From an uncultured Bacteroidota bacterium (GTDB lineage Bacteria; Bacteroidota; Bacteroidia; Flavobacteriales; Flavobacteriaceae): a stretch of DNA of 61,294 bases. The stretch covers positions 1 to 61,294 of the forward strand of contig CABXRK010000004.1 of NCBI GenBank assembly GCA_902514625.1. Direction: 5' to 3'. This document shows positions 39,285-49,912 of the stretch, piece after piece (position 1 is the first letter of the stretch; the number at the start of each line of letters is the position of its first letter). Below the pieces are notes generated by a model that was given only the letters and a program-made list of their open reading frames with translations, did not search any database and was not told the DNA's origin. Position numbers and translations under genes: made by a program.

Positions 39285-40472
39285 CTAGTCTAAAATTTTT
39301 GTGACCTGACCAGCTCCAACTGTTCTGCCACCTTCTCTAATAGCAAATCTCAAACCAACACTTAAGGCTATTGGCTGAATCAAATCTACATTAATTGTCA
39401 AATTATCTCCAGGCATAACCATTTCAACTCCACTTGGTAAATTTATATTTCCAGTTACATCAGTTGTCCTAACATAAAATTGTGGACGATAATTATTATG
39501 GAATGGAGTATGTCTCCCTCCTTCTTCTTTTTTCAAAATATAGACTTCAGCTTCAAATTTTGCATGTGGCTTGACAGACCCTGGCTTACAAATAACCATT
39601 CCTCTTTTAATATCTGTCTTTTCAATGCCTCTTAACAATATTCCTACATTATCTCCTGCCTCTCCTCTATCTAATATTTTTCTAAACATTTCTACACCAG
39701 TAACTGTAGAACTTAATTTTTCAGCACCCATACCAATTATATCAACAGTATCAGATGAATTAAAAACTCCCGTTTCAATTCTACCAGTAGCAACAGTACC
39801 ACGACCAGTAATTGAAAAAACATCTTCAACTGGCATAAGAGCATCCTTTTCAACATCACGTTTTGGTAATTCAATCCATGAATCTACTTCAGTCATTAAT
39901 TTCATAACTGTATCTACCCATTTTTGTTCTCCATTTAAAGCTCCCAATGCGGAACCAAGAACGCATGGAGTATTATCACCATCATAATCATAAAAAGAAA
40001 GTAATTCTCTGACTTCCATTTCAACTAATTCAAGAAGTTCATCATCATCAACCATGTCTGCCTTATTTAAGAAAACGACAAGGCGAGGAACACCAACTTG
40101 ACGGCCCAATAAAATATGCTCTCTAGTTTGAGGCATTGGTCCATCAGTAGCAGCTACTACTAGAATTGCACCATCCATTTGGGCAGCACCAGTAACCATG
40201 TTTTTAACATAATCGGCGTGACCTGGACAATCTACATGAGCATAATGACGTTTTTCAGTTTGATATTCAACATGTGATGTGTTAATGGTTATTCCACGTT
40301 CTTTTTCTTCAGGAGCATTATCAATTTGATCAAAGCTTTTTGCTTCAGAAAAACCCGCATCAGCAAGAACCTTTGTTATTGCTGCTGTGAGAGTAGTTTT
40401 ACCATGATCTACGTGACCTATAGTTCCAATATTTAAATGTGGTTTTGAGCGGTCAAAAGTTTCTTTAGCCAT
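39285..40472 (-). CDS. tuf: Elongation factor Tu
   Basis: [38 protein letters not shown]...[25 protein letters not shown]. Confidence 0.99.
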
Positions 40473-40506
40473 AATTGATTTATTTCGTTATTATTTTAAG
40501 AGCTTG

Positions 40507-40514
40507 CAAATTTA
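40507..40514 (-). promoter_or_regulatory. Candidate -7 box (TAAATTTG) directly upstream of tuf
   Basis: Minus strand TAAATTTGC about 35 nt before the tuf ATG. Confidence 0.4.
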
Positions 40515-40632
40515 GAAAAAAAATTAATTAATACTTAACAATAATCATCTTTTTTTCATACTTAATGAACCTTATTTTATTATCAATTTTTATTTGTTAT
40601 TATTTTACTACATTGTATAAAAATTAAAAACC

Positions 40633-40986
40633 ATGAAAAAACTATTATTTATCTCAATATTTATAACTTCTTTCTTCTCTTTTTCACAAGATTTAACAGT
40701 AAATGGAATTCCTATTTCTGAATTGGATGCCCAATACATTAGAATAAATGCTGAAGTTAAATTGCTAAGACCATTTCAAGCTAAAATTTATGTTGACTAT
40801 GGACAAATTTCAAGGATAAAAGAAATAAAAAAAGGTTATGTCTTAGATGAAAATGGAAAGAAATTTGCCTTTAATGGAATTATGGGTGCAGTGAACCTTT
40901 TGATTGAAAACGGATATTTAATTGACCATGTTTATTACAATGGCGATGCTGAATCCGTCAACTATATTATGAAAAAGGTTAAATAA
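40633..40986 (+). CDS. Small secreted hypothetical protein
   Basis: Signal peptide MKKLLFISIFITSFFSFSQ; 117 aa; no family recognised. Confidence 0.7.
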   Translation: MKKLLFISIFITSFFSFSQDLTVNGIPISELDAQYIRINAEVKLLRPFQAKIYVDYGQISRIKEIKKGYVLDENGKKFAFNGIMGAVNLLIENGYLIDHVYYNGDAESVNYIMKKVK

Positions 40987-41046
40987 GTAAGTTTTATATT
41001 TAATGTATATGAAATCAATCCATAATTTATTTATTAGTTATAAGCT

Positions 41047-41721
41047 ATGAAAAAATTTTCCATTTTATTTGTTCTATTTTTCCCTATTATAACATTATCT
41101 CAAGAACCTGTTGAAGATATTTATGGTTATGTAAAAGTTTATTCAATCGAAGGTAAATTACAAAACGAAATCCACAGTAATATTCTAGAATGGATTGGAG
41201 AAAATTTTAAATCTCCTCAAGAATCAATTCAATTTAATGAGAAAAATAAAATTATCGTTGACCGTGACTTCAAAATGAGTCCAAAACTAATTCAGACATC
41301 ACAAAACACAACAACAAACTATAGAGTATCATCTACAATGGTGTTTCTTATAAAAGAAAATAGATTTCGTTTAGAAATGAAATTAAAAGATATTTATTCT
41401 TTTGATGGAAAAAAGAGAGAGCCTAACTCAACATGGGATATAGCAAGCAACCAAGTTGATGAAAATTATATAGGAAATCTTTTATTGGATGGATTTTTAA
41501 ACGTAAAACAATTTCGTAGATACAATCTAAATTATAGATCTGATTTAAAAGGGGATGTTAAATCAAAAAAAGCTTCAAAATATGTTGATAAAGAAATTAA
41601 AAAAGGTATTTACTTAAAAAGAGTTACTAAAGTAGCCAATGAATTAAATGATGAAATCATTTCTGTCTTTAACTCTATTGAACAGCATTTTAAAAACAAT
41701 TCATCTAATGATGACTGGTAA
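41047..41721 (+). CDS. Secreted protein with DUF4468 (TBP-like fold)-type region
   Basis: Signal peptide; NILEWIGENFKSPQESIQFNEKNKIIVDRDFKM pattern. Confidence 0.55.
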   Translation: MKKFSILFVLFFPIITLSQEPVEDIYGYVKVYSIEGKLQNEIHSNILEWIGENFKSPQESIQFNEKNKIIVDRDFKMSPKLIQTSQNTTTNYRVSSTMVFLIKENRFRLEMKLKDIYSFDGKKREPNSTWDIASNQVDENYIGNLLLDGFLNVKQFRRYNLNYRSDLKGDVKSKKASKYVDKEIKKGIYLKRVTKVANELNDEIISVFNSIEQHFKNNSSNDDW

Positions 41722-41831
41722 AAAAATATTAATTCTCATATGAAATTTCTTTATTAATTTTTTCATTTTTGTTGATTTATTTTATCCACTTTAAATATAC
41801 AAGTTAAAATTTAAACTGAATTAATCTATTG

Positions 41832-42302
41832 TTAATCTAAGTTCCTGCTGTATCCACTTATTATTGGAAAATATTCAAACGGAGCTTTGATGCCAACTTT
41901 TTCAACAGTCCTATTATTAAAATTAATTAATCGATTTGTAAAACCTCCATAAACGGAAACTTTTTCAAGTGAAAAAAAAGTGAACGACTCATTTAAAAGT
42001 TCATTTCTTTTTCCTCCTGGCGATATATTTTTTGCAGTTATTATGTTTGCATCCTCATTTTTATATCTTTCTATCAAAACTAATTTATCACCAGAGATAT
42101 TATAAGTCCATCCCAATGTATTGGATTCAGTTTCATTTACAAATTCACTATACTTTTTCGTAAAAGTTTTGATTTCATCTTCTGATTTATTTTTATTTAT
42201 TCTCAACTCGACAACTACGGTTACCTCATTTGGAATATATTTTTTATCTGTAGAATTACATCCAATTGTTGCAAATGAAATCAATAATATCAATTTTTTC
42301 AT
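41832..42302 (-). CDS. Lipoprotein with antibiotic-biosynthesis-monooxygenase-like region
   Basis: Lipobox FATIGCNSTDK; VVVELRINKNKSEDEIKTFTKKYSEFVNETESNTLGWTYNIS resembles ABM/quinol monooxygenase-like folds. Confidence 0.5.
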   Translation of the reverse strand: MKKLILLISFATIGCNSTDKKYIPNEVTVVVELRINKNKSEDEIKTFTKKYSEFVNETESNTLGWTYNISGDKLVLIERYKNEDANIITAKNISPGGKRNELLNESFTFFSLEKVSVYGGFTNRLINFNNRTVEKVGIKAPFEYFPIISGYSRNLD

Positions 42303-42399
42303 TAATTATTTTTTTTTATTAAGCATAAGTAACTGAAATAAATTTTATTACAAAGTATTATTATAAAAGTCAAATACTTGGAATTACCTTTAAAAAGTA

Positions 42400-42449
42400 G
42401 AGCCAATGCCGAGATTTGAACTCGGGACCTCTTCCTTACGAAGGAACGC
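42400..42449 (-). pseudogene. tRNA-Thr 3' fragment (pseudo-tRNA or attachment site); anticodon position reads CGT
   Basis: gagccaatgccgagatttgaactcgggacctcttccttac is identical over 40 bp to the 3' part of tRNA-Thr(GGT) at 46700..46739. The D-arm and acceptor 5' half are not recognisable. Confidence 0.9.
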
Positions 42450-42505
42450 ATGACATTCATCTTTTTATTACCGGAATGGACATTACTGGATTTAATGCTT
42501 TTTAA

Positions 42506-43396
42506 ATGTTTATATTTAATAAAGTTAAATTAATTATAATGAAATCAATTAATAAATTCACTCTCCTATTTATCATTAATAGCTTTTTATGTTTTTCGCA
42601 ATCAAATATTCCAATAAATGAATGGGCAGGAAAAACTATATTACTTATAGGTGCACATCCAGATGATGATCATCAATCACATGGGACATTGGCAATGCTA
42701 AAAGCAAATGAGAACAAAATCTTCATGGTGATTTTGACAACTGGAAACGTTGGCACTAAAGACCCTAATATAAGTAAAACGGATTTGTCTAAGATAAGAA
42801 GGCAAGAACAAATTGATGCTATTAAAGAAATTGGTCTTTTAGAAGAACATTATGTTAATCTAGGTTATGATGATGGTCGTCTAGAATTTGCTGATAAGGA
42901 AGAAGCAATAGGTAAACTAGTATATTATATTCGTAAGTTTAAACCTGATGTTCTGATGTCATTTGATCCAGGATTTAACTATCAGGTATGGCACAAGAGT
43001 GATCACCGTGCAGCAGCTTATCTAACAGCAGATGCCGTTAGAGCAGCAGAATGGCCTTTAATGTATGAAGGAGATATTATTCAACATAAATTGGACGCCC
43101 ATCTTGTTCCTGAATTTCTTTTTTACGGAGGCAATGTAAGTGACAAAAACACAACAGTAAACATTGATAAATATGTTAATCAAAGAGTAGAAGCAGGGAC
43201 CAAATATTTAAGTCAATGGTCAAGTGGGTGGTTCAACTATTTAGGCTCAGATATTGATAATTATCCAAAAGGAGAAAAAGAGAATGTTTACAAGAAAATA
43301 AGAGATAGAATAAAGGTGGTTAACGGAATATATGTTGAGCAATTTAGGCATTACAAAGGAATTCCAGATGGAATGGGAAGAAGACCAAGAGATTGA
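42506..43396 (+). CDS. PIG-L family deacetylase (secreted); start may be the internal ATG (MKSINKF)
   Basis: TILLIGAHPDDDHQSHGTLAMLK...VILTTGNVGTKD...RRQEQIDAIKEIGL. Confidence 0.9.
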   Translation: MFIFNKVKLIIMKSINKFTLLFIINSFLCFSQSNIPINEWAGKTILLIGAHPDDDHQSHGTLAMLKANENKIFMVILTTGNVGTKDPNISKTDLSKIRRQEQIDAIKEIGLLEEHYVNLGYDDGRLEFADKEEAIGKLVYYIRKFKPDVLMSFDPGFNYQVWHKSDHRAAAYLTADAVRAAEWPLMYEGDIIQHKLDAHLVPEFLFYGGNVSDKNTTVNIDKYVNQRVEAGTKYLSQWSSGWFNYLGSDIDNYPKGEKENVYKKIRDRIKVVNGIYVEQFRHYKGIPDGMGRRPRD

Positions 43397-43430
43397 ATTT
43401 TAATTAGATTTAAAGAATATTATTTCTATC
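43392..43430 (+). repeat. 39-bp direct repeat copy 1
   Basis: attgaattttaattagatttaaagaatattatttctatc; 38/39 identical to 45653..45691. Confidence 0.95.
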
Positions 43431-43469
43431 TATGATCTCTCTAATTAACTTTAGGGGTTTTTTATTGGT

Positions 43470-43496
43470 GGACCTTACGGTCCTAAGTTCGAACTT
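43470..43496. terminator. Hairpin (GGACC-TTAC-GGTCC) plus AAGTTCGAACTT palindrome and T-run between PIG-L and pspC genes
   Basis: Direct reading of ggaccttacggtcctaagttcgaacttttttaat between convergent genes. Confidence 0.4.
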
Positions 43497-43498
43497 TT

Positions 43499-45049
43499 TT
43501 AATCTTCACAACTAATACAACTAAGTCCTTCTTTTTCCATTTTCCAATAGTGGCCAAGCATATCATAATCCCACATATTATGAACATTTTTAATGTCGTA
43601 AATTAAGTCCTCTAAACTATGATCTAAGAAAACAACCATATCAATAGGTAATTCTAAAGTTAAATCTAATTCTTGCATGCGCCATTTTTGTGTAGCGATA
43701 GTGAAAAAGTCATCAAAAATCAGATTATCATTTTCTAGTGTAAATTCAAAACCAATTCCTTCTGCCATTTCTTTTGCTAGATGCTTTTCTTTACCCCTTC
43801 CAGTAGCTTCTTTAATTAAATTAAAATTATCATTTTTACTTTTTACAATATCTAATTCCATTCCAATACCGATTAAGTTATCTTCAAATGGAGTGACTTT
43901 AAATCCTTTTGTATCAAATATATTGTCTAACACTCTATTAACATCATTCATACTTAAATAGAGAGTGTCGCTTTCTGTAATTATATTTTCAATAATTGTG
44001 TTTTTTGCTTCTTCTTTAAATTCTAATGAAATATCTTTTACTGAATTAAGAAGAAAGAATATAGATGTTATCCATAAAACAAATATTCCTATTTTGTAAT
44101 TCATATGGATTTTGGTATTTTTAACTAATCTTAATCCAAATAGAATAACTGCAACAATTGGTATCCCAATGAAGAGAGAGAGCCATGTTGCTGATTTATT
44201 GTTAAAGAAATCATTGAATACATGGTCAACCATTGGATAGTTGTGAAATAAAATTTCTGCACCAGAGAACGCAAAAGAGAAAATAAGGAGAAGTAGGATT
44301 CCTCCAAATAAAATGCAAAAAATTCCAAAAAAACTTCCTGCAAATTTAAATACTCCTTTAATTACACGGATAAAAAAATCCACTATTTTTCTGAAAAAAC
44401 TATTTGCTCCAAACATTTCTTTAGTGAACTTCCTGTCAAAATCTCTTATTTTATCTTCTATTATATTTAATTCTTTTTTAATATTTTTTTCAATATTATT
44501 AATGTTTACTCTTTCACCTTTCATCTCTAATTTTTCAGCAGTAGTTTTAGCAGATGGAAGTACAATCCAGAACATTATATATAGAAATGGTGCTCCAGGG
44601 CCAATTAAAAATAACATCCCTATAAATATAATTCTACAGAAAAGGACATTTATATCAAAATAATGAGCCATTCCACGACAAACTCCACCAATCATTCTAT
44701 CTTCCTCATCTCTGAAAACTTTTCTTCTTTTTCCTTTTCTTAAGTCTTCTTCTTTATCCTGACTTTCCTGAGATTGCTCCTGCTCAATTTCATCATCATA
44801 TTGGCTAGGGTCACCCATTATTGTAGTTATTTCATTTATATCAGTAAGTGAAATCGCTTCTTTTTTATCTAATCGTTCCGTAAAAAGTTCAGCAATTCTT
44901 CCTTCAATATCTTTTAATATTTCATCTCCACCTTCTTCATTTTTAAAATGATTTTTAAGTGCATTTAGGTAATTGTTCAATGTTTCAAAAGCATTTTCAT
45001 CAATATGAAATACAATTCCTGCTAGGTTAACGTTTACAGTCTTATTCAT
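43499..45049 (-). CDS. PspC domain-containing membrane protein
   Basis: KVFRDEEDRMIGGVCRGMAHYFDINVLFCRIIFIGMLFLIGPGAPFLYIMFWIVLP; flavobacterial PspC N-terminal extension; adjacent to padR. Confidence 0.92.
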   Translation of the reverse strand: MNKTVNVNLAGIVFHIDENAFETLNNYLNALKNHFKNEEGGDEILKDIEGRIAELFTERLDKKEAISLTDINEITTIMGDPSQYDDEIEQEQSQESQDKEEDLRKGKRRKVFRDEEDRMIGGVCRGMAHYFDINVLFCRIIFIGMLFLIGPGAPFLYIMFWIVLPSAKTTAEKLEMKGERVNINNIEKNIKKELNIIEDKIRDFDRKFTKEMFGANSFFRKIVDFFIRVIKGVFKFAGSFFGIFCILFGGILLLLIFSFAFSGAEILFHNYPMVDHVFNDFFNNKSATWLSLFIGIPIVAVILFGLRLVKNTKIHMNYKIGIFVLWITSIFFLLNSVKDISLEFKEEAKNTIIENIITESDTLYLSMNDVNRVLDNIFDTKGFKVTPFEDNLIGIGMELDIVKSKNDNFNLIKEATGRGKEKHLAKEMAEGIGFEFTLENDNLIFDDFFTIATQKWRMQELDLTLELPIDMVVFLDHSLEDLIYDIKNVHNMWDYDMLGHYWKMEKEGLSCISCED

Positions 45050-45380
45050 CTTTTTTTGTTTTAGTGGTTAATCGTACTGCTTTTGCTAAATCTTTCCAAG
45101 TGCTATCTAATTCTATTAAAAATGTAATTCCTTTTTTGGTTAAAGAATAATATTTTCTTGGTGGTCCTGCACTAGACTCTTCCCAGCGGTATTGTAATAA
45201 TTCAGCATTTTTTAAGCGAGTAAGTAAGGGATATAGCGTTCCTTCCACTACTATCAATTTTGCTTTTTTTAGCTTTTCGATAATATCAGAAGGGTAGGCC
45301 TCACTATTTTTTAATATGGAAAGTATGCAGTATTCCAAAATCCCTTTTCGCATTTGTGATTGTGTATTCTCAATTTTCAT
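45042..45380 (-). CDS. PadR family transcriptional regulator (start revised to the MKIENTQSQ methionine)
   Basis: MRKGILEYCILSILKNSEAYPSDIIEKLKKAKLIVVEGTLYPLLTRLKNAELLQYRWEESSAGPPRKYYSLTKKG. Confidence 0.95.
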   Translation of the reverse strand: MKIENTQSQMRKGILEYCILSILKNSEAYPSDIIEKLKKAKLIVVEGTLYPLLTRLKNAELLQYRWEESSAGPPRKYYSLTKKGITFLIELDSTWKDLAKAVRLTTKTKKDE

Positions 45381-45384
45381 ACTG

Positions 45385-45392
45385 CAAATATA
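45385..45392 (-). promoter_or_regulatory. Candidate -7 box (TATATTTG) 4 nt before the padR ATG
   Basis: Minus strand TATATTTGCAGTATGAAAATTG. Confidence 0.45.
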
Positions 45393-45465
45393 TAAAAAAT
45401 ATAGAACTATGTATAACAAAGTACTATAAAAATTAAAAAGGGTAGTTTTTAACTAGTTTATTAAG

Positions 45466-45664
45466 AAATAAAAATGAACAAACAGGACTAGATATAATAC
45501 ATATACATTCATTTCCTGAAGGTTATATCTGGATGCAGAGTAATCATTTTACACAAATGGAAACCTCCATCAAGGTTTCCATCGCTAAAATACCTTGGAT
45601 AAAAAGTGCTTTTATTGGACATATAGCCGGTGTATTAATTAATAACAAACTAATTGAATTTTAA
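45466..45664 (+). pseudogene. C-terminal gene remnant, possibly tocopherol cyclase-like
   Basis: In-frame KNEQTGLDIIHIHSFPEGYIWMQSNHFTQMETSIKVSIAKIPWIKSAFIGHIAGVLINNKLIEF*; protein-like composition, but no complete upstream gene. Confidence 0.5.
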
Positions 45665-45691
45665 TTAGATTTAAAGAATAGTATTTCTATC
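45653..45691 (+). repeat. 39-bp direct repeat copy 2
   Basis: attgaattttaattagatttaaagaatagtatttctatc; one mismatch to 43392..43430. Confidence 0.95.
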
Positions 45692-45722
45692 GCTGTCGTG
45701 TAAATGATTTCGTCTAATAATA

Positions 45723-46247
45723 TCAATAATCCGTGGGTATATTAACAAAGCATTTTTCATTTCCAGACATAGCAAACATATATGGATAATCTTTATTATC
45801 CTCACATTTTAATAATTCAAGATAAAGCTTGTATCCCTTTTCTGTACCCGGTGCTTTTAATTTTTGTAAAGCAGAATTAGGATTAATATATATATCAGTT
45901 AACAAATTAAACTTCCTAATTTCATTATAATAACCTTCAGAAACTATAATCAATTTACTTCTGTATTCTTTTTTTTGTGTTTCATTTCCAAATTCATCTC
46001 TTAAAGTATTTGTGGTGTATAAGCGATAGCCTAAAGGACTATAATCATTAGCTCTTAATTCTCTTAATATTGCTTTTCTTGGTTCATCTAACCTACCACT
46101 TATGTATATGTCCCTTGGGATGTCCCTTGGGATGTCCCTTGTGGCTGGAACTTCTGATTCGTATGTAAAGTGTCCAGCTGCTGCACCAACACCGAGACTA
46201 ACAATTACCCACCAATAAACTTTTAAATAATTGATTATTTTTTCCAT
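45723..46247 (-). CDS. Hypothetical protein with one N-terminal TM segment and RDIP repeat
   Basis: MEKIINYLKVYWWVIVSLGVGAAAGHFTYESEVPATRDIPRDIPRDIYISG...; no family recognised. Confidence 0.65.
   Translation of the reverse strand: MEKIINYLKVYWWVIVSLGVGAAAGHFTYESEVPATRDIPRDIPRDIYISGRLDEPRKAILRELRANDYSPLGYRLYTTNTLRDEFGNETQKKEYRSKLIIVSEGYYNEIRKFNLLTDIYINPNSALQKLKAPGTEKGYKLYLELLKCEDNKDYPYMFAMSGNEKCFVNIPTDY
46108..46140 (-). repeat. 12-bp tandem repeat (atgtcccttggg), about 2.75 copies
   Basis: Direct reading; encodes RDIPRDIPRDI. Confidence 0.95.
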
Positions 46248-46701
46248 TTTTATGACTTTAATAATTTCAATATATAAAAAATAAAATTCACCAACTCATA
46301 GCTTCATTTTTATTTCTTAATATACTAGTTAAAAGCTACCCTTAATTATATGTTTAGTGTAGTTGTTTTATTCCAATTTACCATGTTCACTAAATTAGTT
46401 GCATATTTATTTAAATCATTCATTATCAATTACTTATATTTCATTTAAGGGTAAAGGAGATGATAGGCCTCCGACACCCCAATACTATATATACAATCGA
46501 GATCATAAAATCGGTCATATTTGTTCACCAATTTTATTAAAATTCAATATTGAAAAAGATTTGTTCCACTTTTGTCGACATTTTGTAGAAATAGAGATCG
46601 TTGAAAAAAGTAATTCCGAATAGATGGTTTTTCACCAACGTGACACCAAAGTAATTTTGGTGTTTATAAAAATACTACGTAACTATCTGATTATCAATTG
46701 A

Positions 46702-46772
46702 GCCAATGCCGAGATTTGAACTCGGGACCTCTTCCTTACCAAGGAAACGCTCTACCCCTGAGCTACACCGGC
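46702..46772 (-). tRNA. tRNA-Thr(GGT)
   Basis: GCCGGTGTAGCTCAGGGGTAGAGCGTTTCCTTGGTAAGGAAGAGGTCCCGAGTTCAAATCTCGGCATTGGC; anticodon GGT. Confidence 0.95.
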
Positions 46773-47208: not shown

Positions 47209-48606
47209 TTAATTTATGATAGCAAGTGGTTTAGTTGTTTTCCATTTGCCTCTAGTAAAATCAGGAAATTTTTGAGGGTAGCCACCTTGAGCAACTGAAA
47301 TTTCACTTAAAGGTGAAACAGCACTCCAAAAGCATCCCTCATAAACATTCTGATCCAAAGGAATGCCTTCTCTCAAGCATTCAACCATTCTATATAGCAT
47401 CATAAAATCCATCCCGCCATGACCTCCCATTTTTTTTGCTAAGGCTCCTAGTCTTTTATACATTGGGTGTTCGTACTGCTCATAAAGAGCTTCTAATTGT
47501 TGACCTTCTGCCCAACTATTATGGTTTTCGGTTGCTCCAGGAACTCCACCTTGTAATGCTACTCGAGTAGGAAAACCAGCTAAAGTGCCTTTTGTTCCTT
47601 GAATTAAATTTAACCTAGAATATGGCCTAGGACTTGTCTCATCCCACTGAACCATAATTGTCCTACCTAAATTGGTCTTAATGATTGATGTATTAAGGTC
47701 TCCTCCTATAAAATCTGTACTATTCCATAAGTGATCTTTTGAATAATTTTTTCTAGCATATAAATTTCTCCCAATAGCAGGTGTTGAATAAGATACAATT
47801 GTATTAAATTGATCTTCAGATCTTGACAGATTCATATATTGGGCAACAGGACCTAGTCCATGTGTAGGGTATAAGTTTCCATTTCTTTTTGCCAAGTGAT
47901 AAGGTCGCCATACACCCTCACCTCTTTTTTGGTCATCCATTTGATCACGAAGATCATGAATGTAAGCAGCTTCTGCGTGAAGTAAATCACCAATGACTTC
48001 TTTACGGCACAGATTAAGATATAAAAGTTCCTCTCTGCCATAATTGACATTTTCCATCATCATACAATGCTTTTGTGTCTGCTCTGAAGTATTAACAATT
48101 TCCCACATTTCTTTCATAGTTACTGCGATAGGTACTTCTACAAAAGCATGAGCCCTTTGCTTCATAGATTCAATAGTCATTTGAGCATGATTATTCCAAT
48201 TAGTTGCTATAATTACAGCATCAGGTTTTACCTTTTTCAGCATTTTTTTCCATAGATTTTCATCTCCAAAATACTTTGCTATATTTTGATGTCTTCCATT
48301 ACCTTCCTCAATACAAGAAGAAACTGAACGATTTACCAAATCTTCATGAAGATCAGATATTCCAACAATTTCAGTCCCTTTGATGGAAGCAAGTTGTTTA
48401 GCGTGTGCATGTCCTCGACCTCCAACACCTATAATGGCTATACGGACTTTTTCAAGTTTAGGAGCCGCAAAATCACCCATATAATTTTCTTCAGAATTAA
48501 CAAAATAATCTTTACTGCAAGCATTTTGTATAATACTTGAAGAAGAAATAGTCGCGGCTGAAAGTAATGAAGTTTTTAAAAATTTACGTCTATCAAAATT
48601 TTTCAT
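47209..48606 (-). CDS. Gfo/Idh/MocA family oxidoreductase, GH109-like, with Tat-like signal
   Basis: DRRKFLKTSLLSAATISSSS; IAIIGVGGRGHAHAKQLASIKGTEIVGISDLHEDLVNR; VEVPIAVTMKEMWEIV; NVNYGREELLYLNLCRKEVIGDLLHAEAAYIHDLR. Confidence 0.88.
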   Translation of the reverse strand: MKNFDRRKFLKTSLLSAATISSSSIIQNACSKDYFVNSEENYMGDFAAPKLEKVRIAIIGVGGRGHAHAKQLASIKGTEIVGISDLHEDLVNRSVSSCIEEGNGRHQNIAKYFGDENLWKKMLKKVKPDAVIIATNWNNHAQMTIESMKQRAHAFVEVPIAVTMKEMWEIVNTSEQTQKHCMMMENVNYGREELLYLNLCRKEVIGDLLHAEAAYIHDLRDQMDDQKRGEGVWRPYHLAKRNGNLYPTHGLGPVAQYMNLSRSEDQFNTIVSYSTPAIGRNLYARKNYSKDHLWNSTDFIGGDLNTSIIKTNLGRTIMVQWDETSPRPYSRLNLIQGTKGTLAGFPTRVALQGGVPGATENHNSWAEGQQLEALYEQYEHPMYKRLGALAKKMGGHGGMDFMMLYRMVECLREGIPLDQNVYEGCFWSAVSPLSEISVAQGGYPQKFPDFTRGKWKTTKPLAIIN

Positions 48607-48720: not shown

Positions 48721-49008
48721 TCACTTTTTTTTCAATTTGACCAAGATTCTTTCAGCTTTTTTAATGCTCCTATTAACAGATTTCTCAAAAGAAAATGTAG
48801 TGTTTTTTACAACTATTTCCCTTCCTGGTATCCTAACTATGAATTCTACAATTTTATTAATTTTAGAAGATGTGTTTTCTATTTTAAAAAGAACTCTAAT
48901 TTTCAATATTCTTTTGTAAAACTTCTCTAATTTTTTCGTCTTATTTTTAACGAAAAATTTAAGTTTATTATCGACTTTAAAATTAACAGACTGAAAGTTA
49001 TATATCAT
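48721..49008 (-). CDS. hpf: Ribosome hibernation-promoting factor family (HPF/YfiA); start revised to MIYNFQSVNF
   Basis: NFQSVNFKVDNKLKFFVKNKTKKLEKFYKRILKIRVLFKIEN; position next to xerC and the tRNA cluster. Confidence 0.85.
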   Translation of the reverse strand: MIYNFQSVNFKVDNKLKFFVKNKTKKLEKFYKRILKIRVLFKIENTSSKINKIVEFIVRIPGREIVVKNTTFSFEKSVNRSIKKAERILVKLKKK

Positions 49009-49912
49009 TTTTTTTATTTCTTGGATGAGTTTTAGAATAAATTTCCTTGATTTTATCCATACTACTATGAGTATAAATTTGAGTTGCAGCAAGAGTAGAA
49101 TGGCCTAAAAGTTCTTTAACCGCATTAAGATTGGCTCCTTTATTTAATAGATGAGTAGCAAAACTATGTCTCAACATATGAGGACTTTTTTTAACCTTGG
49201 TTGATACAACACTAATATAATAATTAACTGTCTTATAAACAAAATTCTCATTTAGCATTTTACCCTTTTTATTAACTAATAAATACTCCTGATCAATTAT
49301 GATTTTCAAATTTTTTCTGTAATTCAAAAATTTAATTAATGAATTCTCTAAAACTCCTACAATTGGTATTAACCTCTCCTTATTTCGTTTGCCAAGAACT
49401 TTAATAACTTTGTTAGATAAATCTAAATTCTTATAGTGTAAGTTTATTAACTCCGCTCTTCTAATTCCAGTAAAATAAAATAATTCTATAATAATTTTAC
49501 TTAAACATCCTTCATAGTTTTCTTTAAAAAGATTAGATTCAAATAAATCATTCATCTCTTTTTCTGAAAATGGTATCTGAACTTTTTTTGACTCTTTTAA
49601 AGCTATATGTTTTATTAAAGGGGAAGCTTCTCTTACTTCTACTCTAACCAAAAAATTATAAAAAGATCTTAAAACAGAAATTTTTCTGTTAACGGTCCTA
49701 TTTGTATTTCCAATTTCTATTAGAGATATTATCCAATCCCTTATAGAGTTATATTCAACATAATCAATATTGTTTTTTTTTGATTTTATGCAATAATGAT
49801 TCTGAAATGACAATAAATCTTTTTTATATGCTTTTTGAGTATGAGAAGAGTATTTTTTTTCTAAGGTTAAGTATTCAATAAATCTATTAATTGAGCTTTC
49901 CATTATAATCAA
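48998..49912 (-). CDS. xerC: Tyrosine recombinase XerC-like
   Basis: FTGIRRAELINLHYKNLDL, LGKRNKERLIPI, HMLRHSFATHLLNKGANLNAVKELLGHSTLAATQIYTH. Confidence 0.93.
   Translation of the reverse strand: MIIMESSINRFIEYLTLEKKYSSHTQKAYKKDLLSFQNHYCIKSKKNNIDYVEYNSIRDWIISLIEIGNTNRTVNRKISVLRSFYNFLVRVEVREASPLIKHIALKESKKVQIPFSEKEMNDLFESNLFKENYEGCLSKIIIELFYFTGIRRAELINLHYKNLDLSNKVIKVLGKRNKERLIPIVGVLENSLIKFLNYRKNLKIIIDQEYLLVNKKGKMLNENFVYKTVNYYISVVSTKVKKSPHMLRHSFATHLLNKGANLNAVKELLGHSTLAATQIYTHSSMDKIKEIYSKTHPRNKKNDI

Follow-up and report, generated by a model that had tools for sequence, protein, structure and literature searches.

A tRNA-Thr(GGT) 3' half repeated 4.3 kb from its gene in a marine flavobacterium: a probable scar of integration

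Introduction

How did the 3' half of a tRNA-Thr(GGT) gene come to stand twice on one contig, 4.3 kb apart, and did the DNA between the two copies arrive with an integrating element? The question is raised by a stretch of 61,294 bp, called the window below, from contig C4 of a Flavobacteriaceae draft genome (60 contigs with 1.25 Mb in total, 63% complete, with an estimated contamination of 0.01). A preliminary description had offered two readings, a decayed island targeted to tRNA-Thr or a degraded duplicate of the tRNA gene with the anticodon CGT. The locus presents a case of accessory gene gain at a tRNA gene in a small-genome marine flavobacterium.

The repeated tRNA-Thr half

An intact tRNA-Thr(GGT) gene is called by ARAGORN, and also identified by Rfam, on the minus strand at 46700-46772. 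As described before, its last 40 bp plus one flanking base (46700-46739) recur exactly at 42400-42439, and the further matching bases noted across the anticodon loop are confirmed as well, with the match reaching 47 nt. The complete direct repeat thus consists of 42400-42446 and 46700-46746, with 46 of 47 positions identical, in the same orientation and at a spacing of 4,300 bp: the first 40 nt are identical, then comes a G/C difference at the first anticodon base, and then 6 identical nt. The match sets in within the anticodon stem-loop and extends to a single base beyond the discriminator, and the duplicated part comprises the tRNA 3' half only, flank not included; the flanks of the two copies show no significant likeness to each other. 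The displaced 3' fragment, also on the minus strand, lies downstream of the intact gene, and the geometry of an intact tRNA at one end with a 3' fragment at the other is upheld by both ARAGORN and the repeat itself.

A repeat of 47 nt is far beyond chance. The longest exact repeats in first-order Markov simulations of the window measure 16-19 nt, and when the window is compared with itself by blastn, the tRNA repeat is the strongest short repeat listed. In the family as a whole, the tRNA-Thr 3' half is present in 343 of 400 Flavobacteriaceae genomes, as a single copy in the rows listed except for this genome, which has two copies.

Gene content and origin of the segment

The putative island body between the repeats (42447-46699) contains three intact genes, namely those of a PIG-L family deacetylase (42506-43396, plus strand; Pfam PF02585, 4.3e-24), a PspC domain protein (43499-45049, minus strand; PF04024 and PF22744) and a PadR-type regulator (45042-45419, minus strand; PF03551, 2.2e-16, with an ATG start near 45380). 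The PspC gene overlaps the PadR gene, and the two make up a two-gene operon. Besides these, there are a gene remnant (45446-45664, plus strand) and an orphan ORF of 174 aa (45723-46247, minus strand) for which Pfam, PHROG and the viral contigs hold no relative. The content had been described as accessory and devoid of an integrase, and this is what we find: the relatives searched hold no orthologue of PIG-L or PspC, and no integrase-like gene is found between the repeats, the sole match to PF00589 within the window being a Xer-type gene at 49 kb.

The origin of these pieces can be approached by comparison with relatives. For PIG-L, there is no orthologue in three same-genus genomes, while genes of two other genera share 87-88% nt identity with it. 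Since this cross-genus identity exceeds that of tuf within the genus (82-83%), the PIG-L gene was probably acquired horizontally, by transfer between lineages. PspC is absent from 10 relatives. The remnant matches a gene of another genus: 157 bp of it (45505-45661) agree at 99% with an internal stretch of a 323-aa gene in a genome of a distant genus (G079), a likeness that may stem either from very recent transfer or from an error of assembly. By its GC profile the segment does not stand out. Just outside the fragment, the gene at 41832-42302 shares 83% aa identity with a gene of a same-genus genome (G003) and is native to the genus. With a native gene outside and a foreign PIG-L gene inside, the native/foreign boundary falls between 42302 and 42506, where the fragment sits.

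Two other short repeats are located within the segment. One is a 39-bp direct repeat on the plus strand (43392-43430 and 45653-45691, 38 of 39 identical), of which one copy stands where the foreign PIG-L gene has its 3' limit and the other at that of the foreign remnant, and which, these copies aside, is not met in full in about 0.9 Mb of loci. The other is a 41-bp inverted repeat (45438-45478 and 46303-46343, 95% identity) enclosing about 0.9 kb in which the remnant and the orphan ORF lie, a unit which could be invertible or mobile. These 39-41 bp repeats indicate that further rearrangement occurred inside the segment.

The tRNA-Thr/tuf interval in related genomes

In all 52 other loci measured in the family and the order, the start of tuf lies 50-122 bp beyond tRNA-Thr. 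In this clade the distance is 0.8-11 kb, or tuf is not found; thus a junction that is tight elsewhere has been broken open and has become a site of gene turnover. The distance amounts to 6.2 kb in the window and 4.9 kb in G001 of the same genus, and to 1.9, 7.4 and 11.3 kb in L115, L117 and L118; in L120, tuf is 0.8 kb from the fragment, and L114 and L116 have no tuf within 10-15 kb. The open junction is found in this genus and in nearby small-genome lineages, with contents that vary between lineages, those of G001 and G002 being partly alike. Neither G001 nor the other tRNA-Thr/tuf intervals of the clade contain a second tRNA-Thr half.

In the window, tuf (EF-Tu; 39285-40472, minus strand) adjoins the older part of the opened interval (40473-42399), with ORFs at 40633-40986, 41047-41721 (DUF4468) and 41832-42302, the last being the genus-native, lipoprotein-like one. 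The stretch directly upstream of tuf is conserved throughout the four members of the genus and carries what we take to be a Bacteroidota-type promoter motif (TTG, 21 nt, TAAATTTG), and on the strength of both features tuf is probably transcribed on its own in the window genome. The whole interval from 40.5 to 46.7 kb is, when set against the gene order of the family, foreign to the family plan. The preliminary description had placed the accessory zone at 42.4-46.7 kb, which is right as to the accessory content and too narrow as to the extent, the zone reaching to tuf at 40.47 kb. Because the junction was already open in the clade, the 4.3-kb segment would be a late addition to the hotspot, and the older genes would have been pushed toward tuf by it, a time order that we infer.

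A different element at the same tRNA-Thr 3' half

An exact T-arm half is common to eight named genomes, six of which have it within an intact tRNA-Thr, as the 3' half. In L069 and L072 the tRNA 3' half is joined, at the contig starts, to a non-tRNA sequence that does not differ between them (64 of 64 nt), and the flanks downstream of the tRNA half differ between the two. L068, which has the intact tRNA-Thr, is 95% identical to L072 over 1,550 bp, the homology running from the tRNA half onward into the flank, and judging from this alignment L068 and L072 form an empty/occupied pair at the same attB. The pair indicates that, in related marine flavobacteria, a second, different element has its attB in the part of tRNA-Thr(GGT) from the anticodon to the 3' end, and the fragment starts in the window and in L069/L072 are within a few bases of each other. 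The L072 contig begins inside the element, a genus-mate of L072 is without it, and the L072 assembly has an estimated 7% contamination; L069 has the same element end independently. On the whole, tRNA-Thr(GGT) is added as an attachment site, used there by at least one, probably two, elements.

Possible sources were also searched for. Among the viral contigs, neither the tRNA 3' half nor the L072 element end has an exact match, and PIG-L and the orphan ORF are without relatives there; the matches in phage records are only to ordinary tRNA-like stretches, and the plasmids hold nothing resembling the remnant. As for integrases elsewhere in the draft genome, one on a short contig adjoins mnmE, and around the rest, the loci read are without the tRNA-Thr core, so none was retained as the source. 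Phage-type integrase genes adjoin mnmE both in this genome (L137, 282-1442) and in G424 (L136, 3589-4794), which suggests a second integration site common to these lineages.

Integration and alternative explanations

The explanation that we favour, with a probability of about 0.8, is that an integrative element recombined into the 3' half of tRNA-Thr and that its integrase has since been lost or was not part of it. The element would have carried the tRNA-Thr(GGT) 3' half on its attP and crossed over with the chromosomal tRNA-Thr in the anticodon loop. Counted against this are the single repeat mismatch, which falls in the likely overlap region, the lack of an integrase between the repeats and the further rearrangement marked by the two other short repeats. 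The copy at 46700-46746 (attL), presumably supplied by the element, would have rebuilt the tRNA gene at the 46.7-kb end, and the chromosome's own 3' half would have been displaced to the 42.4-kb end as attR (42400-42446). What is left would be 4.3 kb of cargo, from which the integrase was deleted or which belonged to a non-autonomous element using an integrase in trans, inserted into a hotspot that the clade had opened earlier when tRNA-Thr was parted from tuf. The catalysis may be ascribed to a tyrosine integrase, a member of the recombinase family that is known for its use of tRNA genes (PMC4383910). Observed directly are the repeat with its geometry and uniqueness, the foreign cargo, the native gene beyond the fragment and the other element at this tRNA half, and all of them speak for integration; the tyrosine recombinase, the time order and the choice between a lost and an absent integrase are inferred. 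The fragment has just the form that site-specific integration into a tRNA 3' half would predict, and its start in the anticodon stem-loop is counted for integration since this is a known crossover sub-site, anticodon-centred sites occurring in about half of the 3,919 islands found by the Islander principle (PMC4383910). An empty site, with tRNA-Thr running straight into the sequence left of 42400, had been proposed as a check; no relative shows one for this exact insertion, where the only close orthologue of the outside gene sits at a contig end and the G001 flank resembles both window flanks equally (0.025 each versus random AT-rich stretches), pointing to neither as the ancestral one. A special form of this explanation, in which the segment would be a compact cargo cassette that by nature has no integrase and was mobilised in trans by that of another element with the same tRNA-Thr core, we consider unlikely; if true, the tRNA-Thr/tuf junction in streamlined marine Flavobacteriaceae would be a docking site at which autonomous and non-autonomous elements alike insert.

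The other reading of the preliminary description, a decayed duplicate of the whole tRNA-Thr gene, has in its favour the CGT at the anticodon position and a CCGGT shortly before the match, near the expected tRNA 5' end. However, the tRNA-calling check proposed for 42.4 kb returns no gene, since ARAGORN calls none there and the Rfam tRNA model gives the fragment 17.3 bits, below the gathering score of 29. When a tRNA 5' half is sought 5' of the fragment, its anchored score is matched by 42% of random AT-rich stretches, and none is recognisable. Decay is disfavoured because a 98% intact 3' half adjoins this random-like 5' side, and the other family genomes listed have no second copy, so that we find a decayed duplicate scarcely credible. 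A segmental duplication is disfavoured too, as the flank would be expected to come along and is absent here. The island is therefore the favoured one of the two original readings, based on the absence of a tRNA-like 5' side, the intact 3' half and the use of the same tRNA half as att site by another element in related genomes.

Integration has also to be weighed against illegitimate recombination or a short templated duplication, which would have copied the tRNA part with no site-specific element, repeated repair building the segment together with its 39-bp and 41-bp repeats. These two repeats, of high identity and similar length, fit such a history, as does a 39-bp copy at the 3' limit of each of the two foreign pieces. 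However, the tRNA repeat is bounded, like an att core, by the anticodon loop on one side and the tRNA end plus one base on the other, and the same core is used by another element in relatives, so repair seems to us clearly improbable. An assembly or amplification artefact, with a chimeric join in the contig at the tRNA half or the short repeats, would be conceivable for a draft in 60 contigs with the odd 157 bp at 99% identity to a distant genus. Yet the fragment is set apart by a mismatch and by a unique 5' side, the genes of PIG-L, PspC and PadR are intact, several junctions would need to be false at once and the estimated contamination is low, which leaves an artefact very improbable.

Comparison with known island classes

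Among the known classes, the segment is most readily compared with the tDNA-bounded islands collected by Islander (PMC4383910). Like these, it has an intact tDNA at one end and a downstream 3' fragment in the same orientation at the other, with an anticodon-centred crossover; the fragment reaches the tDNA end and lies outside coding domains, and the length of 4.3 kb is within the range of 2-200 kb. Unlike them, it has no tyrosine integrase gene inside (no PF00589 match in the segment) and would fail the Islander integrase filter. An empty site is found for the other element at the same attB (L068/L072), though not for this insertion. Likewise comparable is fGI-2, an additive flexible genomic island at tRNA-Lys of Ca. 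Methylopumilus (PMC10872708), which shares with our case a streamlined pelagic host, variable genes at one tRNA and a repeated tRNA 3' end, and relatives of the window genome do carry different genes at the same site; however, the fGI-2 repeat is 20 nt and recurring, while here it is 47 nt and single. Tycheposons, the tRNA-bounded cargo elements first described in Prochlorococcus, are also marine and mostly cargo by definition (PMC10872708), but no tyrosine recombinase is found here. Owing to the missing integrase, the segment is classed neither as a complete island nor as a tycheposon; it is a decayed or non-autonomous member of the known kind of tRNA-bounded islands, an ordinary kind of scar.

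Neighbourhood of the tRNA cluster

Accessory genes are also seen on the other side of the tRNA cluster. In the window, a Gfo/Idh/MocA (GH109-like) gene (47209-48606) separates tRNA-Thr(TGT) from the hibernation-factor gene, two genes that stand close together in relatives; accessory genes enter both sides of the cluster. The Xer-type recombinase gene (48998-49912) adjoins the tRNA cluster in most relatives checked. In G429 (L073, 3270-4263), about 1 kb parts tRNA-Gly from tRNA-Thr(GGT), so that the tRNA cluster itself is interrupted there.
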